64,000 bases of DNA from Candidatus Heimdallarchaeota archaeon (GTDB lineage Archaea > Asgardarchaeota > Heimdallarchaeia > JABLTI01). The position numbers were made by a program, and so were the translations under genes. The notes beneath the pieces were generated by a model that was not told the DNA's origin, searched no databases, and saw nothing but the letters and a program-made list of their open reading frames with translations. The stretch is taken from the NCBI GenBank assembly GCA_018238155.1, contig JABCTZ010000017.1:1-64000 (forward strand), written 5' to 3'. Each line of letters opens with the position of its first letter. The stretch's first letter is position 1. Shown piece after piece: positions 25,157 through 32,639 of this stretch.

Positions 25157-25648
25157 ATGGCCGTTGTAACAACTACTACTGTTTCGGTGAGGTGTGCGGG
25201 GCACAATGGTAGAGCTACGCTAAAAGAAGCGGTAGAAGCAGGTTGGCGTATGTGTAGAATTTGTAGGTCATTTATCTGTCCAAAATGCATCGAAGAATTT
25301 GATTTGAAAATGAATGGAACTTGCCCATCGTTTATTTTTGGAATGGACCAACACCAGCTTAGTCCAGGGCCTATTCCCGTTGAAGAAGTAATTCTATTTG
25401 CAGAATCAAACAAACAAGAAGGAATTACCGGTGGGTTGTTAGAAGCACTCTTCTTTGAGGATGAGCAAATGGGTTTTATGCCTTTTTATGCTGCTATTGA
25501 AAAGAAAAAGAAAGAAGAAGAAGAGACGGATGAAGATGAATTGAGTTTAGAACCTCCAAAAATACAAGAAGAAATGTGGTCGTCTTTTGGATTTGTAATG
25601 ACTAAAAGAAGACGAGGAAAATTCATTACTTGGGAGAAAATCGGTTAA
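25157..25648 (+). CDS. Small RING-like zinc protein
   Basis: 163 residues. Likely zinc ligands are C13-x2-H16, C33-x2-C36, C41-x2-C44 and C56-P, a RING/treble-clef-like pattern. The rest is acidic, with a KKKKEEEETDEDE linker and a basic aromatic C-terminus. In Caldiarchaeum-type archaeal ubiquitin operons a small RING finger protein acts with E1, E2, ubiquitin and Rpn11-like genes. Here it lies 20 bp after the KITE-like gene and 33 bp before the JAMM gene. It could be the E3-like subunit that links conjugation to the SMC complex, analogous to the Nse1 RING. The same cysteine spacing recurs in the protein at 35113. Confidence 0.6.
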   Translation: MAVVTTTTVSVRCAGHNGRATLKEAVEAGWRMCRICRSFICPKCIEEFDLKMNGTCPSFIFGMDQHQLSPGPIPVEEVILFAESNKQEGITGGLLEALFFEDEQMGFMPFYAAIEKKKKEEEETDEDELSLEPPKIQEEMWSSFGFVMTKRRRGKFITWEKIG

Positions 25649-25681
25649 GGTTTTTAGAGACTAACAATAGGTGTAATACAG

Positions 25682-26317
25682 GTGACAAAAAAACAACAAA
25701 AACAAAAAAAATTACTTTCCGAATTACTTGGTGAAGTCGCACCTGAAGAAACCCCTTCAGAACAAATTGAAGAGGAATCTCAAACTGTTGATAATGAAGA
25801 GCTTACTGAGGAAATTTTAGAAGAATATCCATTAAATGAAATATATTCGGTATACATTCTACATAGAGTCGTTTATGAAACAATAGTTATGTGTAAGAAA
25901 GCTATTCCAAATGAAGCAATTGGTATTCTCTTAGGATATAAAATGCGATACAAGGGGAAAAATTATGTCAAGGTAGTTGATTGGGTCACAGGTAAAGCAA
26001 ACCAAAGTCAAGCTTTTGCAGAATTTACTCCTGAGGGTGTAAGACAATACACTACACTAATTGATGAAAGATATGGAGAAAGTGAAAACCGACCAAGAAT
26101 AGTGGGTATAATTCATTCACATCCATTTGGGTCTAATCCACATTTCTCCAGAACGGATTATAATACCTTTCTGAATTTTCCCTATGATGCAGAGCACAAT
26201 GTATTCGTTTTAGTAGATCCGAAATCTGGTTACTACAAAACATACATGGTTCTTACAAATGAGGAAAAACAAAAGGATTTGATCGAAGTAAACTGGATTG
26301 AATATACAGCACGATAA
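25682..26317 (+). CDS. JAMM/MPN+ metalloprotease (Rpn11-like)
   Basis: 211 residues with a GTG start preceded by AGGTGT. An acidic N-terminal tail (1-50) is followed by an MPN domain with E78 (NEAIGILLG), H145 and H147 (HSHP) and D159 (FSRTD). The HSHP-to-SxxD spacing is 7 residues, one more than in Rpn11 or CSN5, but all zinc ligands and the catalytic glutamate are present. It should remove or mature ubiquitin-like tags. The ubiquitin-like protein here already ends at its terminal glycine, so isopeptidase action is the likelier role. Confidence 0.9.
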   Translation: MTKKQQKQKKLLSELLGEVAPEETPSEQIEEESQTVDNEELTEEILEEYPLNEIYSVYILHRVVYETIVMCKKAIPNEAIGILLGYKMRYKGKNYVKVVDWVTGKANQSQAFAEFTPEGVRQYTTLIDERYGESENRPRIVGIIHSHPFGSNPHFSRTDYNTFLNFPYDAEHNVFVLVDPKSGYYKTYMVLTNEEKQKDLIEVNWIEYTAR

Positions 26318-26329
26318 AGAGGTGAAAAA

Positions 26330-27184
26330 ATGACTGAAAAACCACTACATGTAGGATTTTACGAGGATGACCTTGAAGATCGTACTCGAAGATATTATGG
26401 AATAGATAACCTCAAACGAATTAAAGATAGCACAATTTTGTGTGTCGGTGCCGGAGCTGTTGGAAATGAGGTTTGTAAAAATCTTGGTATGTTGGGTGTA
26501 GGTCATATTCGTTTAGTTGATTTTGATATAGTAAGTAAATCAAACATAAATCGTTGTATATTTTTCAGACCTGAGGATCACAAAGAAATTTCAAAAGTTG
26601 AAGCTGTAACAAAACGATTGCCGGAAATTGTCCCAAATACAAAGATTACTCCCTATAATGTGAGAATAGAAGAAGCACCCCTAGAAGTTTATGATGCTGA
26701 TTTAATTATTATGGCATTGGATAATGACTATGCAAGGTATATGTTAAATTTCGCTGATTTAATGTTAGAAGTACCCATTCCAATTGTTAATGGTGCTATG
26801 GGAAGATCATTTTTAGAAGCGGAAATATATCTCCCAGGTGATACTGCTTGTGCAGTTTGCTTATGGAGTGAGGATTATTATCGTTCAATAATGACTCATC
26901 AAGTAACGCTAAAATGTGATGAATTTTTTATTGACACATTACCTAAATTTCCAATGATCAGTACATTGACTTCAATTGTTGGTGGGATTATGTCTGTTGA
27001 AGCAACTAAAATTCTCATTAGTAGCGATGGAACTGGTAAATACCCGAATATTACAAAAGGGCAAGAACCAAACTTCGGTAAAATGATTAGATATGATCTT
27101 AGAAATCATGAATTAACTATTGGGAATATTATGCCAAATCCAAAATGTGTAGATGTAACATGCAGAGCAAGGCGAAAAAATTGA
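26330..27184 (+). CDS. E1-like ubiquitin-like-protein activating enzyme
   Basis: 284 residues, one adenylation domain of the ThiF/MoeB/Uba class. The nucleotide loop is VGAGAVGNEVCKNL (39-52), followed by VDFDIVSKSNINR (63-75) and ALDNDYAR (129-136). Structural zinc ligands are C174/C177 (CAVC) and C273/C278. The likely catalytic cysteine is C196 in LKCDEFFIDTLPKFP, in the position and context of the UBA2/UBA3 active cysteine (CT...TP). No C-terminal ubiquitin-fold domain is present. It lies 12 bp after the JAMM gene and activates the ubiquitin-like protein encoded next. Confidence 0.92.
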   Translation: MTEKPLHVGFYEDDLEDRTRRYYGIDNLKRIKDSTILCVGAGAVGNEVCKNLGMLGVGHIRLVDFDIVSKSNINRCIFFRPEDHKEISKVEAVTKRLPEIVPNTKITPYNVRIEEAPLEVYDADLIIMALDNDYARYMLNFADLMLEVPIPIVNGAMGRSFLEAEIYLPGDTACAVCLWSEDYYRSIMTHQVTLKCDEFFIDTLPKFPMISTLTSIVGGIMSVEATKILISSDGTGKYPNITKGQEPNFGKMIRYDLRNHELTIGNIMPNPKCVDVTCRARRKN

Positions 27185-27208
27185 CGCTCACATCGGTAAT
27201 TTCCATCA

Positions 27209-27271
27209 ATCAAATATTTGATGGAATATCAAAGATGCAGAGCAGCATCCATACAGTTGTAATAATAAATT
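27209..27271 (+). promoter_or_regulatory. Cluster of hairpins between E1 and the ubiquitin-like gene
   Basis: Within the 128-bp gap are a perfect 14-bp palindrome ATCAAATATTTGAT (27209-27222), a 5-bp stem GATGC/GCATC (27234-27249) and a third small stem GTAAT/ATTAC near 27257-27271, followed by A-rich sequence. It may be a processing site or a second promoter that lets the ubiquitin-like protein and E2 be expressed at a different level from the SMC genes. Confidence 0.35.
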
Positions 27272-27312
27272 ACTCTGTAAAAATAAAAAAAATCAACTAA
27301 AGGTGTTAATAA

Positions 27313-27624
27313 ATGAGCGAAGAAATATGGCGTGAAATAATCGTTGACGTAGAGCCTAGACAAAAAGAGTTTAGGGTAGCAGTTGAAGAAGAATCTACTA
27401 TAGATGAAGTTGTCAAAACATTAGTACAACGATGTGTAGATGAAGGTGTAGACATTTCCAAATGGGCTAAAGAAAAGGTAGGACAACCAAATGTTAGTTT
27501 CGTGTTAATGCGAAAATCAACAGGTAATACTGCCTTACCTCCTGCAGTAACTTTTGGTTCATTAGAACCAATACTCGAGACAAATGAACGCTTTAAACTT
27601 GATGCATGTGCTCAAGTTGGATAA
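27313..27624 (+). CDS. Ubiquitin-like modifier protein
   Basis: 103 residues with a beta-grasp pattern: two N-terminal strands (REIIVDVEPRQKEFRVAVEE), the main helix (TIDEVVKTLVQRCVDEG), then FVLMRKSTGN, a turn and FKLDACAQVG. It is preceded by AAGGTG. The C-terminus is a single glycine after valine rather than Gly-Gly, with no extra tail. Position between E1 and E2 genes makes it the probable substrate of this conjugation set. A YukD/EsaB-like non-conjugated beta-grasp protein is the alternative. Confidence 0.72.
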   Translation: MSEEIWREIIVDVEPRQKEFRVAVEEESTIDEVVKTLVQRCVDEGVDISKWAKEKVGQPNVSFVLMRKSTGNTALPPAVTFGSLEPILETNERFKLDACAQVG

Positions 27625-27722
27625 AGTTTCGAAACGAACATTCAACAGTAATTATAGTTAGGTATTGATCTTTGGGGATTACAAATTAATTCCCAATTTA
27701 TCTTAATGAAATAAAACGAAAG

Positions 27723-28502
27723 GTGAAAAAAATTTCAAGAGCAAATTTCCCGGCGACTGTAGTAAACGCAAGAATAGCCGAATCGATAAATGTCTTTTAT
27801 GATTCGATGGAAGATTTCTTCAAAAAAGAAGGATGGAAATGGCAACCATTCGCACGAAAAGGTGACAAATGGGTACAAGAAGATTATACAGTAGAAATAA
27901 CTGGGAAATATCAAGATGGCGCATTTAGAGAGATACTCTTTACTGCTAGAAGAACTCCGGGTTTAATTGGACAATCAACTAAAAAGGATAAAATGAATAT
28001 CGGTTACATTCACAAGTTCTCGATATATCTACCCAGGGTGTATCCTGCAAACTTGTCCCACATAAAAATGAAAGTTATATCACGACTTTGGCATCCAAGA
28101 ATATCCATGTCTGGTAGAGGAGATGCTTGTATAACCGTAAATGGTGAAGTGGATAGAATTTTGATTGATTTGATTTACCATCTATTAATGGACCCAAAGA
28201 GAATACGTCCACCAAAACTATATCCAAAAGAGGATTCGGGTATGAATACAGTAGCTATGCGTTGGTTTGAAAAAGATGCAGAAGATATACATAAAGCAAT
28301 GCTAGTAAATTGGGATACAAAACACGAAAAAACTTCTTTGAAAGATGGTGGTGGTGGAATAAAGATAATCGGTGGAGATAACAAAAAGCAGGAAAGCAAA
28401 GGAAAGAGTGCAATCAGAATCATTCCAAAAAAGATTGAGGAAACAAAAGAATCCTCACAAAAGAAAGAGAAAAAGAAGAAGGGTGGCATGCGTATAATTT
28501 GA
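27723..28502 (+). CDS. E2-like (UBC-fold) conjugating enzyme with motif-bearing tail
   Basis: 259 residues. The UBC fold is shown by IYLPRVYPANLSHIKMKVIS, then HP at 124-125, then GRGDACITVNGEVDRILIDLIYHLL, where C136 is the expected catalytic cysteine, and a following RPP segment. The family's HPNI...GxICL pattern is well kept. Residues 215-259 are a charged tail with three IKII/IRII/MRII-type motifs. The annotated GTG lies inside the AAAGGTGA box; spacing suggests initiation at ATT 27732 instead. Its stop overlaps the TTG of the next gene. Confidence 0.85.
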   Translation: MKKISRANFPATVVNARIAESINVFYDSMEDFFKKEGWKWQPFARKGDKWVQEDYTVEITGKYQDGAFREILFTARRTPGLIGQSTKKDKMNIGYIHKFSIYLPRVYPANLSHIKMKVISRLWHPRISMSGRGDACITVNGEVDRILIDLIYHLLMDPKRIRPPKLYPKEDSGMNTVAMRWFEKDAEDIHKAMLVNWDTKHEKTSLKDGGGGIKIIGGDNKKQESKGKSAIRIIPKKIEETKESSQKKEKKKKGGMRII

Positions 28503-28795
28503 AAAAAAGGACGAATGTGCAAGCAAACGATGAATTCGATGAGTTTACCTTCGAAATTAGCTCATCAAATGCAAATGATGAGATAATTGAAGAAATTGAA
28601 AGCCTAGATCTGATAGATGAAAACATTGAAGATAAACCCAAACAAAAAACGATTAAAATTCTATCTGAAAGGGATATTCAATACAGAGAATCACCACCTC
28701 CAAATTATTATCCAAAATTCAAATGTATTTTACATTATAAAGGTGGGAACTATCGGAAAAGGAAAATACTCAAGGTAGCACATCAGGAAGACTAG
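28499..28795 (+). CDS. Small acidic operon protein, unknown
   Basis: 98 residues from a TTG that overlaps the E2 stop (TTGA), with GGTGGC upstream. The first half is acidic (NDEFDEFTFEISSSNANDEI...ESLDLIDENIED), then PKQKTIKILSERDIQYRE, then a basic aromatic end (NYYPKFKCILHYKGGNYRKRK). TIKIL resembles the repeated motif in the E2 tail. No family is recognised. Coupling to E2 suggests an adaptor or inhibitor of the conjugation set. Confidence 0.6.
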   Translation: MKKRTNVQANDEFDEFTFEISSSNANDEIIEEIESLDLIDENIEDKPKQKTIKILSERDIQYRESPPPNYYPKFKCILHYKGGNYRKRKILKVAHQED

Positions 28796-28917: not shown

Positions 28918-28940
28918 TTCAATCTTAGGAGAAAAATAAC

Positions 28941-30659
28941 TTGACAAAAACTATTGTTCTAAAAGTAAAAGGTTTGTCACATGAAGATGTATGTAATATT
29001 GTGAGGAATAATTATCAATTAACCCTCTCTGAACCTGTTAAGAAAAAAATACGATTAGCTAGAAAAGCAATTGAGATATCTGTGGAATCAGGACAGAAAG
29101 TCTATGGAATTACTACCGGTTTTGGCTCTCTAAGGGATATCGTTATCCGAGAGAAAGATGCTGAACAATTACAGATAAATTTAATCAGAAGCCACTCTGT
29201 TGCTGTGGGTGAACCCGCAAAAGATGAACAAGTAAAAGCAATGATGGTTCTACGCGTTACTGCTTTGGCTAGAGGGAACTCTGGTTGTCAGCTCTCTACA
29301 GTAGAGAATCTAATTGCTATGATAAATGACAATGTATTACCTATCATTCCAAGTAAGGGATCTGTTGGCGCAAGTGGTGATTTAGCTCAACTTTCACATA
29401 TGGCATTAACAATGATTGGGGATGGTCATAATAACCTAAAATATAAAGGTAAAATATATGATGCTAAAGATGGTTTGAAAAAAGCAGGCATCCCTATAAC
29501 AAAATTATCATACAAAGAAGGCTTGGCTTTAAATAATGGTGTACAATATTCTGCTGGAATAGCATGTATGGCTATAAAGGATTCATATAATCTATTAGAG
29601 AATTCGCTAATAGCGCTTGCATTAACAATGGAAGCTCTAAAAGCTGCAAAACAACAGTTTGATGAGAGAATACATTTAGCAAGAAATCATCCTGGACAAA
29701 TAGCAATTGCTCGAAAAATAAGAGCATTCTATAAAGGGAGCAAATTAGTAAAAATCTATGGGGATGTCTATACTTGTCCCGAAGAATTTTGTGGATACTA
29801 TTACGATTCTGAAATGGGCGATTCAAATCGTGGAATTAAAGAATGGACTCTTTTTGAAGATTTGCCTGAAGATTGGACTTGTCCAAAATGCGGTTTAGTA
29901 AAGAACACTTTCATAAAAACACTGCCAAAGTTGCAAGATGATTATTCAATCCGATGTTCACCACAAGTACTTGGACCAATAAGTGATGTGATGGATAATA
30001 CTAGAACAATATTATCTCGAGAGATAAATGCTGCAACAGATAATCCTTTGATTTTCATTAAGAGGGAAGATCCACTAGAATTTGATATTTTTTCCGGTGG
30101 CAATTTTCATGGGGAACCGATAGCAATTGCTATGGATCATCTAGCTATAGCAATGGCAGAATTAGGAAACATTGCAGAAAGACGATGTGCAAAATTAGTT
30201 GACGGTTCTAGGAATGAGGGCTTGGGTGCATTTCTAATCCATAGAGAAGCTTTAGGATTAAATAGTGGTTTTATGATGCCTCAGTATGTCACCGCCGCAC
30301 TTGCTTCTGAAAACAAAGTATTAGCTTCTCCTGCTTCAATAGATTCAATACCAACTTCTGCAAATGCTGAAGATCATGTAAGTATGAGTCCAATTGCTGC
30401 AAGAAAAGTTGTTGCAATAAATGAAAATTTAGTCTATATTATTGCTATAGAAATGATGCTAGCTGCACAAGGTGTAGATTTAAGATGCCAAATACAAAGC
30501 TTGACTCCAAAAGATGCTCTAGGTGATAAGACTTTCAAAGCTTATCAATTTATAAGAAGTATAATTCCAGTATTAACTCATGATAGAATAATTTATACCG
30601 ATATAGAAAAACTAGCTAAAAAAATAATTGATGGAAGTATTGTAAAATCAATTTCATGA
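28941..30659 (+). CDS. MIO ammonia-lyase (HAL-like) with inserted rubredoxin domain
   Basis: 572 residues from TTG with AGGAGA upstream. GSVGASGDLAQLSH holds the MIO triad A144-S145-G146. The selectivity loop LIRSHSVAVG has the Ser-His of histidine ammonia-lyases. QDDYSIRCSPQVLG and ATDNPLIF are also intact, so the lyase looks active. A complete rubredoxin (about 277-322) is inserted directly before QDDYSIRC: C279-x4-C284-GYYYD, GIKEWTLFEDLPEDW and C314-x2-C317-G. Removing it restores the normal length of about 515-525. Iron binding beside the active-site segment suggests redox or oxygen sensing. Histidine to urocanate is the likeliest reaction, not proven. Confidence 0.9.
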   Translation: MTKTIVLKVKGLSHEDVCNIVRNNYQLTLSEPVKKKIRLARKAIEISVESGQKVYGITTGFGSLRDIVIREKDAEQLQINLIRSHSVAVGEPAKDEQVKAMMVLRVTALARGNSGCQLSTVENLIAMINDNVLPIIPSKGSVGASGDLAQLSHMALTMIGDGHNNLKYKGKIYDAKDGLKKAGIPITKLSYKEGLALNNGVQYSAGIACMAIKDSYNLLENSLIALALTMEALKAAKQQFDERIHLARNHPGQIAIARKIRAFYKGSKLVKIYGDVYTCPEEFCGYYYDSEMGDSNRGIKEWTLFEDLPEDWTCPKCGLVKNTFIKTLPKLQDDYSIRCSPQVLGPISDVMDNTRTILSREINAATDNPLIFIKREDPLEFDIFSGGNFHGEPIAIAMDHLAIAMAELGNIAERRCAKLVDGSRNEGLGAFLIHREALGLNSGFMMPQYVTAALASENKVLASPASIDSIPTSANAEDHVSMSPIAARKVVAINENLVYIIAIEMMLAAQGVDLRCQIQSLTPKDALGDKTFKAYQFIRSIIPVLTHDRIIYTDIEKLAKKIIDGSIVKSIS

Positions 30660-30902: not shown

Positions 30903-31115
30903 TGTATTTTATCCAATAATACCGTGACCATAGCCTTTGAATACGTCCAAATGTAAATACCTTTTTTGTACAAAAGAATCTTCAAGTTAATAGTAAAAAC
31001 TGCTTTTTGTGGGTAGAATGTGGGGTAACGAACCAATCCTATCCCATGCTTTCTAGATAAAGATTTTAAACTTAGCTCAAATACTTTGACAATCATTCAC
31101 TTTAGGTGGAAAAAC

Positions 31116-32639
31116 ATGACCTATACAATCAAAGGTGCTGGACTAACAATTGAAGATGTTGTAAAAGTCGCACGACATAATGAAAAAGTAAAGTTGCATC
31201 CTGACGCAATAAAACGCATGCAAACATGTAGAGATATGGTCGAAGAAAAAATCGAAGCAAACGAAGTTATGTACGGAATAACAACAGGAATTGGTGAATT
31301 CTCAGAGACATTTCTTAAAGGTGAGGAAGTCAAGTTATTCCAGAAATATTTGATATATAATCACGCTGCAGGTATTGGTAAAGCAGCTCCTATTGAGCAT
31401 GTTCGTGCTGCTATGCTAGGTAGACTCAATGTTCTCGCACATGGAAATTCTGGTAACAGAGTAGTAATTGCTGAAACATATGTTGAAATGTTGAATAAAG
31501 GAGTCACTCCAGAAGTTTGTGAAAAGGGTTCTGTTGGTGCTTCTGGTGACTTATGTTCCATGTCACAAATAGCTTTACTTCTTATGGATGAAGGAAGAGC
31601 TTTCTATAAAGGTAAATTATTGCCTGGAAAAGAAGCCTTGGCTAAAGCAGGAATCAAAGCTCCAGGATTAGAACCTAGAGATGGTTTAGCAGCAATTAAT
31701 GGCTCTAATTTTCTTACTGCAATGAGTGCTCTTTGGCTTTATGACGCATTAAGATTCATGAAGCAAGCAGAGATTGCTTGTGCAATGACAATTGAAGCAT
31801 TAATGGGTAATATGAAACCTTACACTCCAAAGCTGCACGAAATTCGCGGCTTCCCTGGCGCAATTAGATCTGCAAAGTCACTTTCAAAACTTTTCAAAGG
31901 AGGGGACTTGTTTGAAGCAAAACTAAAAGTAAAAGTTCAAGATGCTTATTCAATGCGCTCTGCTCCCCAAGTATTAGGTGCTGCTCATGATGCATTAGCT
32001 TGGGCTCGTTCACAAGTGGAAATTGAATTAAATGGCGTTGGAGATAATCCTATCTTCTTCCCCGAAGAAAAATTAACACTCACTGGAGCAAACTTCCAAG
32101 GAACTCCTGTTAGTTTACCATTTGATATGGCTGGTGCAGCAATTACTATGGTCTGTGTTATGTCTGAAAGACGTATGAATAGATTAAATCATCCAGCACT
32201 TAGTGTAGGTTTACCACCATTCCTAACAAAAGGAGCAGGATTAATGTCTGGTTTGATGTTAAGTCAATATACTGCAGGTATGCAAATCGTTGAAATGCGA
32301 ATCTTATCCGCTCCTGCAAGCATCCAATCTATTCCAGCAGCTGCAGATCAAGAGGACTTCGTTTCAATGGGAATGAATACTGCTCTCAAAAACAATCAAA
32401 TTTTGGATAATGCTTATGGTGTTCTTGGTATAGAGCTTATGGCAGCTGCACAAGCTTTGGATTTCAGAGAATTCAAATTTGGTGATGGTGTAATAAAAGC
32501 CAAAGAAGTAATTCGAAAACATGTTGATTTCCTTGACGAAGATAGACCATTGTTTGACGATCACAATGCTATGAAAGCATTGGTCAAATCATGTGAAATT
32601 CTCGAAGAAGTTGAAAAAGAAATTGGCAGTTTAGATTAA
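31116..32639 (+). CDS. Second MIO-type aromatic amino-acid lyase family protein
   Basis: 507 residues from the ATG 31116, preceded by AGGTGG (a TTG at 31086 is out of range of this box). GSVGASGDLCSMSQ gives the MIO triad A142-S143-G144, and VQDAYSMRSAPQVLG, GVGDNPIFF and the N-terminal YGITTGIG tyrosine loop are present. The selectivity loop reads LIYNHAAGIG, with Asn-His instead of the Ser-His of the lyase upstream, and LAQLSH is replaced by LCSMSQ. It may therefore use another amino acid or act as an aminomutase. No hutU, hutI or formiminotransferase genes are in the window. Confidence 0.88.
   Translation: MTYTIKGAGLTIEDVVKVARHNEKVKLHPDAIKRMQTCRDMVEEKIEANEVMYGITTGIGEFSETFLKGEEVKLFQKYLIYNHAAGIGKAAPIEHVRAAMLGRLNVLAHGNSGNRVVIAETYVEMLNKGVTPEVCEKGSVGASGDLCSMSQIALLLMDEGRAFYKGKLLPGKEALAKAGIKAPGLEPRDGLAAINGSNFLTAMSALWLYDALRFMKQAEIACAMTIEALMGNMKPYTPKLHEIRGFPGAIRSAKSLSKLFKGGDLFEAKLKVKVQDAYSMRSAPQVLGAAHDALAWARSQVEIELNGVGDNPIFFPEEKLTLTGANFQGTPVSLPFDMAGAAITMVCVMSERRMNRLNHPALSVGLPPFLTKGAGLMSGLMLSQYTAGMQIVEMRILSAPASIQSIPAAADQEDFVSMGMNTALKNNQILDNAYGVLGIELMAAAQALDFREFKFGDGVIKAKEVIRKHVDFLDEDRPLFDDHNAMKALVKSCEILEEVEKEIGSLD

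Follow-up and report, generated by a model that had tools for sequence, protein, structure and literature searches.

Histidine ammonia-lyases (HALs; HutH) are homotetramers that turn L-histidine into urocanate by a non-oxidative reaction, in an active site that is built from three subunits. The activity of the Pseudomonas putida enzyme is reportedly raised by zinc, an effect proposed to operate via His83 and the substrate, and the crystal structure is without zinc (PMC11432326, in the part of the paper available). The DNA analysed here (the window, a stretch of 64,000 nucleotides from a Candidatus Heimdallarchaeota archaeon) encodes a HAL-family protein that carries a rubredoxin domain directly before its catalytic Gln/Tyr segment. 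The gene is termed hutH-Rd, and its product and the corresponding proteins of the same genus are termed Rd-HALs. As far as open-licence papers show, Rd-HAL represents a previously unreported form of the known enzyme HutH: no report of a rubredoxin inside an ammonia-lyase was found in open-licence PMC papers. It offers a natural example of a metalloprotein domain placed next to the active site of an enzyme that requires no metal for its chemistry.

The hutH-Rd gene and its product

The features of the locus are collected in Table 1. The hutH-Rd protein matches the Pfam family Lyase_aromatic (PF00221) at residues 12-539 with 562.3 bits (E 9.8e-169) and covers positions 1-465 of the 466 in that model, which marks it as a full-length lyase. 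The same whole-protein scan returned Rubredoxin (PF00301) at 52.6 bits (E 4.8e-14, cut-off 23). The motifs C279-X4-C284-G, C314-X2-C317-G, GIK, FEDLPEDW and QDDYSIRCSPQ are all present. The preliminary description, which had placed four rubredoxin cysteines, GIK and FEDLPEDW before a QDxYSxRCxPQ segment in an otherwise complete MIO lyase, was therefore right about the motifs and their coordinates, and about the complete lyase around them. A broken gene was rejected, as the frame is open and free of internal stops in all nine members of the genus, and an intein was rejected, as the inserted sequence is a known domain.

Table 1. Features of the hutH-Rd locus (window coordinates).
Feature	Position	Strand	Basis or remark
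hutH-Rd, histidine ammonia-lyase with inserted rubredoxin	28941..30659	+	572 aa ORF, TTG start
AGGAG, Shine-Dalgarno-like	28927..28931	+	9 bases 5' of the hutH-Rd TTG start; sequence reading only
Ala144-Ser145-Gly146, MIO cofactor precursor	29370..29378	+	Alignment with annotated HALs; invariant in 9/9 Rd-HALs
Insert in presumed outer active-site loop, about residues 272-329	29754..29927	+	Alignment with HALs without insert
Rubredoxin domain, residues 277-324; presumed metal ligands C279, C284, C314 and C317	29769..29912	+	PF00301; Cys invariant in 9/9; domain model matches rubredoxins
Catalytic segment Q332-D333-D334-Y335-S-I-R338; D334 peculiar to the Rd form	29934..29954	+	Sequence comparison
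Glu477, taken as catalytic Glu411 of GkHAL	30369..30371	+	EDHVS motif match, not direct GkHAL alignment; PMC11432326 (part of the paper)
HAL2, second HAL-family gene, no insert, Asn at the Ser84 position	31086..32639	+	Pfam, TIGR01225, alignment

Twelve HAL positions were checked, with residue roles that the available part of PMC11432326 gives for GkHAL and that were transferred to Rd-HAL by motif. These comprise the Ser/His substrate dyad Ser84-His85, the Ala-Ser-Gly at 144-146, and the catalytic residues Tyr55, Asn199, Gln332, Tyr335, Arg338, Phe389 and Glu477. All twelve are the same throughout the nine Rd-HALs and in four bacterial proteins annotated as hutH. The NCBIfam hutH model TIGR01225 scored the hutH-Rd protein at 539.9, barely above its cut-off of 539.15; this model was passed by four of the five Rd-HALs tested (L004 reached 538.4) and by none of four HAL2 proteins, whereas the broader model NF006871 (cut-off 524) was passed by all five Rd-HALs and also by two of the four HAL2s. 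A phenylalanine or tyrosine ammonia-lyase or an aminomutase was rejected as an alternative: the protein scored 260.7 bits with TIGR01226 (phenylalanine ammonia-lyase, cut-off 519.15), it fell below the cut-offs of the models for FlxA and for the tyrosine and phenylalanine aminomutases, and its Ser/His dyad and Glu477 are of the HAL type.

Downstream genes of histidine breakdown are present as well. Urocanase (hutU) is found in all nine genomes of the genus, and hutI exceeds its cut-off in eight, the ninth having a partial match. In the window's genome, hutU and hutI are found near each other, at G000:C39:53626-56102, on a different contig from hutH-Rd. Urocanate hydratase is described as a conserved key histidine-breakdown gene in Asgard archaea, including Heimdallarchaeota (PMC7015854, in the part available). 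Because the 12 active-site positions are kept and hutU and hutI accompany the gene in nine and eight of the nine genomes, respectively, the hutH-Rd product most probably functions as a HutH.

The window's assembly, which is rated 90.7% complete, holds two PF00221 matches, namely hutH-Rd and HAL2. HAL2 falls below the hutH equivalog cut-off and has Asn in place of the substrate Ser, and its substrate may differ; it might nevertheless be a second histidine lyase. Directly upstream of hutH-Rd, at 25157-28795, lies a ubiquitin-type gene cluster in which a JAB protease and an E1/ThiF protein exceed their Pfam cut-offs, an E2-like gene falls below, and a small gene without a Pfam match is, as a guess, a possible Ubl; the cluster holds other genes as well. 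The E1, the E2-like gene and a 98-aa gene before hutH-Rd were found at all nine loci compared.

Structure prediction agreed with both domain assignments. The whole-protein AlphaFold2 model (17 sequences) reached a pLDDT of 79.9 and a pTM of 0.80, and its ten best Foldseek matches were all HALs (1eb4, TMt 0.92). VIA-align gave Z 43.2 for 7tqr (rmsd 2.5 over 479) and Z 42.2 for 1b8f (rmsd 2.3 over 496); tyrosine aminomutases tie with HALs in this comparison, so that the fold alone does not decide HAL identity. The pLDDT falls below 50 in segments 272-275 and 327-335, of which the second holds the catalytic Gln and Tyr, and the orientation of the inserted domain is thus weakly placed. When the insert was modelled alone (pLDDT 77.3, pTM 0.54), the top Foldseek matches were rubredoxins or rubredoxin chimeras (1rdg, E 5.3e-4, TMt 0.74). 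Superposition on 1rdg gave Z 7.1 with an rmsd of 1.8 over 52; a Z of about 7 is middling when taken alone, and the sequence agrees with it.

Conservation and distribution of the insert

The insert lies at the identical place in all nine genomes of the genus, that of the window included, all of which are Heimdallarchaeota or Asgard MAGs. In a search of 96 genomes the eight other members gave near full-length matches to the hutH-Rd protein, at 67-93% identity, and HAL matches of other families, among the matches listed, fall either side of the insert. The Rubredoxin family was matched above its cut-off of 23 by all nine HALs of the genus (53.4-66.4 bits) and by each of the eight inserts that were also scanned alone (54.4-67.3 bits). 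The eight other Rd-HAL records come from several isolate series, and their contigs are named in several styles (k127, k141, NODE, scaffold). Because of this conservation, chance and misassembly are both very unlikely explanations. Misassembly, which the preliminary description had named among the findings that would overturn it, is hence rejected on cross-genome conservation.

A 117-position model that covers the insert with its flanks was run against 227 genomes of the phylum. The nine genomes of the genus matched it over positions 1-116 or more, with 216-234 bits, whereas in the 218 others the best match was 59 bits over 62 positions and no rubredoxin fusion was seen, among the matches listed; in some genomes the scoring covered the 20 best first-look candidates. 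A scan of genome contigs with two narrow peptide patterns yielded 61 stretches, of which eight were confirmed, on contigs from seven Candidatus Heimdallarchaeota MAGs and one Asgard group MAG. This two-pattern scan returned members of the genus alone and no fusion beyond it, a result that speaks for presence and not for absence elsewhere, as distant fusions could escape such patterns. Judged by length, loci L033-L040 repeat the contigs of G001-G008 and were not counted as extra evidence. Among plasmids, 906 records match the whole hutH-Rd protein, the 15 listed spanning 1434-1512 bases and so being too short for the insert; the 116-aa joint segment is matched by 34 plasmid records and two phage records, in each case over no more than 80% of its length. 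Viral contigs gave one HAL only. The statement in the preliminary description that a rubredoxin inside an ammonia-lyase was not a known arrangement can thus be made more precise: the fusion is real, conserved in the genus and not seen in the 218 other genomes of the phylum, the plasmids or the phages that were searched, and its novelty extends as far as the open-licence literature.

In a tree of 40 HAL-family sequences, computed with the insert removed, the Rd-HALs form one group with a support of 100, while families f2 and f4 fall together elsewhere (97). Vertical descent of the Rd-HALs from a HAL1 like that of the other Heimdall families was therefore set aside, though only provisionally, as their deeper neighbours are poorly supported in the tree.

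The inserted domains have diverged considerably around a constant core. Against six of the other eight, the window's 60-residue insert segment has 43-50% identity, and against the remaining two 92 and 85%. All nine nevertheless retain the four cysteines, which are the presumed metal ligands, and further residues mostly of the rubredoxin core (Gly-Tyr-Tyr, Gly-Asp, Phe, Trp, Pro, Lys, Phe). The first knuckle is CX4CG in every insert, so the pair of CX2CG knuckles used to recognise a rubredoxin is not present; the second is CX2CG in eight inserts and CX2CQ in L011. In contrast, all 22 free Asgard rubredoxins that were read, including that of the window's own genome, have a CX2C first knuckle. 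The mean net charge is -3.7 for the inserted domains (n=9) and -6.5 for the free ones (n=22), a weak result in which kinship was ignored (Mann-Whitney p 0.013). Separately, in two of the nine genomes (L103 1-1623, minus strand; L104 1468-3117, plus strand) a short N-terminal rubredoxin-like domain was observed on an enzyme that, named by eye, reads like a TPP-dependent enzyme of the acetolactate synthase/pyruvate oxidase type.

In all 36 pairs compared, the non-synonymous rate pN of the insert exceeds that of the remaining protein, by about 1.3 to 2.4 times. Omega for the insert was computable in 17 of these pairs, where it lies at 0.10-0.45; the remaining 19 are saturated. Among the seven pairs of lowest divergence, the insert has 0.10-0.25 and the rest of the protein 0.03-0.15. 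Judged from these values, the insert is under purifying selection.

The insertion site and possible roles of the domain

HALs without an insert have 9 to 12 residues between a Gly-Ser (or Asp-Ser, Gly-Gly) turn and the Gln-Asp-x-Tyr segment, a stretch that we take to be the outer active-site loop. In the hutH-Rd protein this distance is 64 residues. The rubredoxin match ends at residue 324, after which only seven residues lead to Gln332 and ten to Tyr335. Moreover, D334, next to Tyr335, is present in all nine Rd-HALs and in none of 31 other HAL-family sequences, which suggests that the catalytic segment may be adapted to the domain as a lid. The exceptions to the usual spacing among other HALs are L013, with 24 residues, and five Asgard HALs of family f16 from five genomes (L016, L019, L021, L022 and L024), which carry an unrelated insert of ~90 residues, devoid of cysteine, at this same site. 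Two of the five f16 inserts were scanned and gave no Pfam family above cut-off; by eye, the f16 inserts appear helical. Some HALs have SHxxCxKVQD or SHxxCxRVQD at the loop (e.g. L014, L081, L086). The idea that the metal site arose from a conserved cysteine of the loop was considered and dropped, as the HALs of Cetobacterium, Peptoclostridium and Priestia are without it.

The preliminary description had suggested gating by redox state or oxygen. With all four cysteines kept and the catalytic Gln/Tyr segment following directly, the insert may indeed make the enzyme depend on metal or redox state. The reading that we favour, at about an even chance, is one in which a metal-bound, folded rubredoxin acts as a lid that positions the catalytic segment. 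The inserted domain would bind one iron (or zinc) via its four cysteines and, in this metal-bound form, would make up a rigid lid in the outer loop. Because a short linker ties the lid to the Gln-Asp-Asp-Tyr segment, metal loading would order that segment and close the active site, so that full activity would depend on metal. Besides the weakly placed orientation of the domain, two observations count against the lid: the faster non-synonymous change of the insert is as expected of a tolerated surface insert, and the presence of the unrelated f16 insert indicates that the site may simply tolerate insertions.

These two observations are in turn those that favour a neutral or merely stabilising insert, in which the rubredoxin would have landed in a permissive loop and persisted only because stability requires that it fold, with any metal. 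The use of rubredoxin as an inserted fusion partner in receptors, as seen in PDB molecule names, is consistent with this, and so are the genes around hutH-Rd, among which (10 proteins, three without a Pfam match) Pfam named no redox protein. A neutral insert would not, however, be expected to hold four cysteines and a core invariant across inserts as divergent as these, nor to be accompanied by D334, and we regard this explanation as unlikely.

A redox or oxygen switch is similarly doubtful. The rubredoxin iron would be reduced in the anoxic cell, and its oxidation or loss would shift the lid and turn histidine breakdown off or on; in the fuller version of this scheme, likewise improbable in our view, the lid would report iron or oxygen status to Tyr335 of a redox- or iron-gated MIO enzyme and so switch histidine catabolism. 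To our knowledge, no such control is known in the ammonia-lyase family. The position of the domain immediately before the catalytic residues fits a switch, and the CX4C first knuckle, which sets the inserts apart from the free rubredoxins, could shift the potential. However, the structure of rubredoxin changes little upon reduction, which leaves little reason to expect a strong conformational switch, and the neighbourhood again offers no redox protein that Pfam can name. In AvPAL, Vmax and Km fell and specificity rose when a disulfide was engineered into the other lid loop, the inner one (PMC13174424, a preprint, in the part available); this favours a switch to the extent of showing that lids of the family can tune activity.

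Finally, a docking or electron-carrying module, in which the domain would take or give electrons or bind a partner such as another Hut enzyme, is very improbable: rubredoxins carry electrons, the PDB matches of the insert model include a class III hybrid cluster protein and an AlkB-AlkG protein, and two members of the genus bear a rubredoxin-like domain on the apparent TPP-dependent enzyme, but the inserts are less acidic than free rubredoxins (with kinship ignored in that test), hutU and hutI are on another contig, and the lyase reaction is non-oxidative with its HAL residues kept. The proposal in the preliminary description that the domain delivers electrons to an unusual reaction is hence not supported, because the 12 HAL positions are unchanged, the chemistry is non-oxidative and the neighbours include no nameable redox protein; electron transfer into the HAL reaction is unlikely.

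Relation to known systems

The predicted metal site of Rd-HAL is defined and adjoins the catalytic loop, which makes metal control in the ammonia-lyase family directly testable, and Rd-HAL may serve as a natural template for engineering metal-switchable ammonia-lyases. Rd-HAL shares its whole fold and the HAL active-site positions with the known HutH enzymes (the Pseudomonas putida 1B8F/1EB4 series, Thermoplasma acidophilum 7TQR and Trypanosoma cruzi 6V6H). These enzymes have a short loop at the insertion site, where Rd-HAL has a predicted metal-binding domain instead. The f16 family of Asgard HALs has the insertion site in common with Rd-HAL and differs in what occupies it.

Adenylate kinases with a zinc Cys4 lid provide a case in which a metal-bound Cys4 element stabilises an active-site lid; their fold and reaction are unrelated to those of Rd-HAL, and the likeness is one of analogy only. 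The inserted domain itself has the four cysteines, the aromatic core and the fold of rubredoxins (Desulfovibrio gigas 1RDG, Clostridium pasteurianum, Pyrococcus furiosus). Free rubredoxins have a CX2C first knuckle, whereas the Rd-HAL domain has CX4C and sits inside an enzyme; a CX4C rubredoxin is known in Desulfovibrio desulfuricans. Engineered receptor-rubredoxin chimeras (CCR5, CCR2 and the apelin receptor in the PDB) likewise place a rubredoxin within the chain of another protein, but these are man-made, whereas the domain of Rd-HAL is natural and adjoins an active site.
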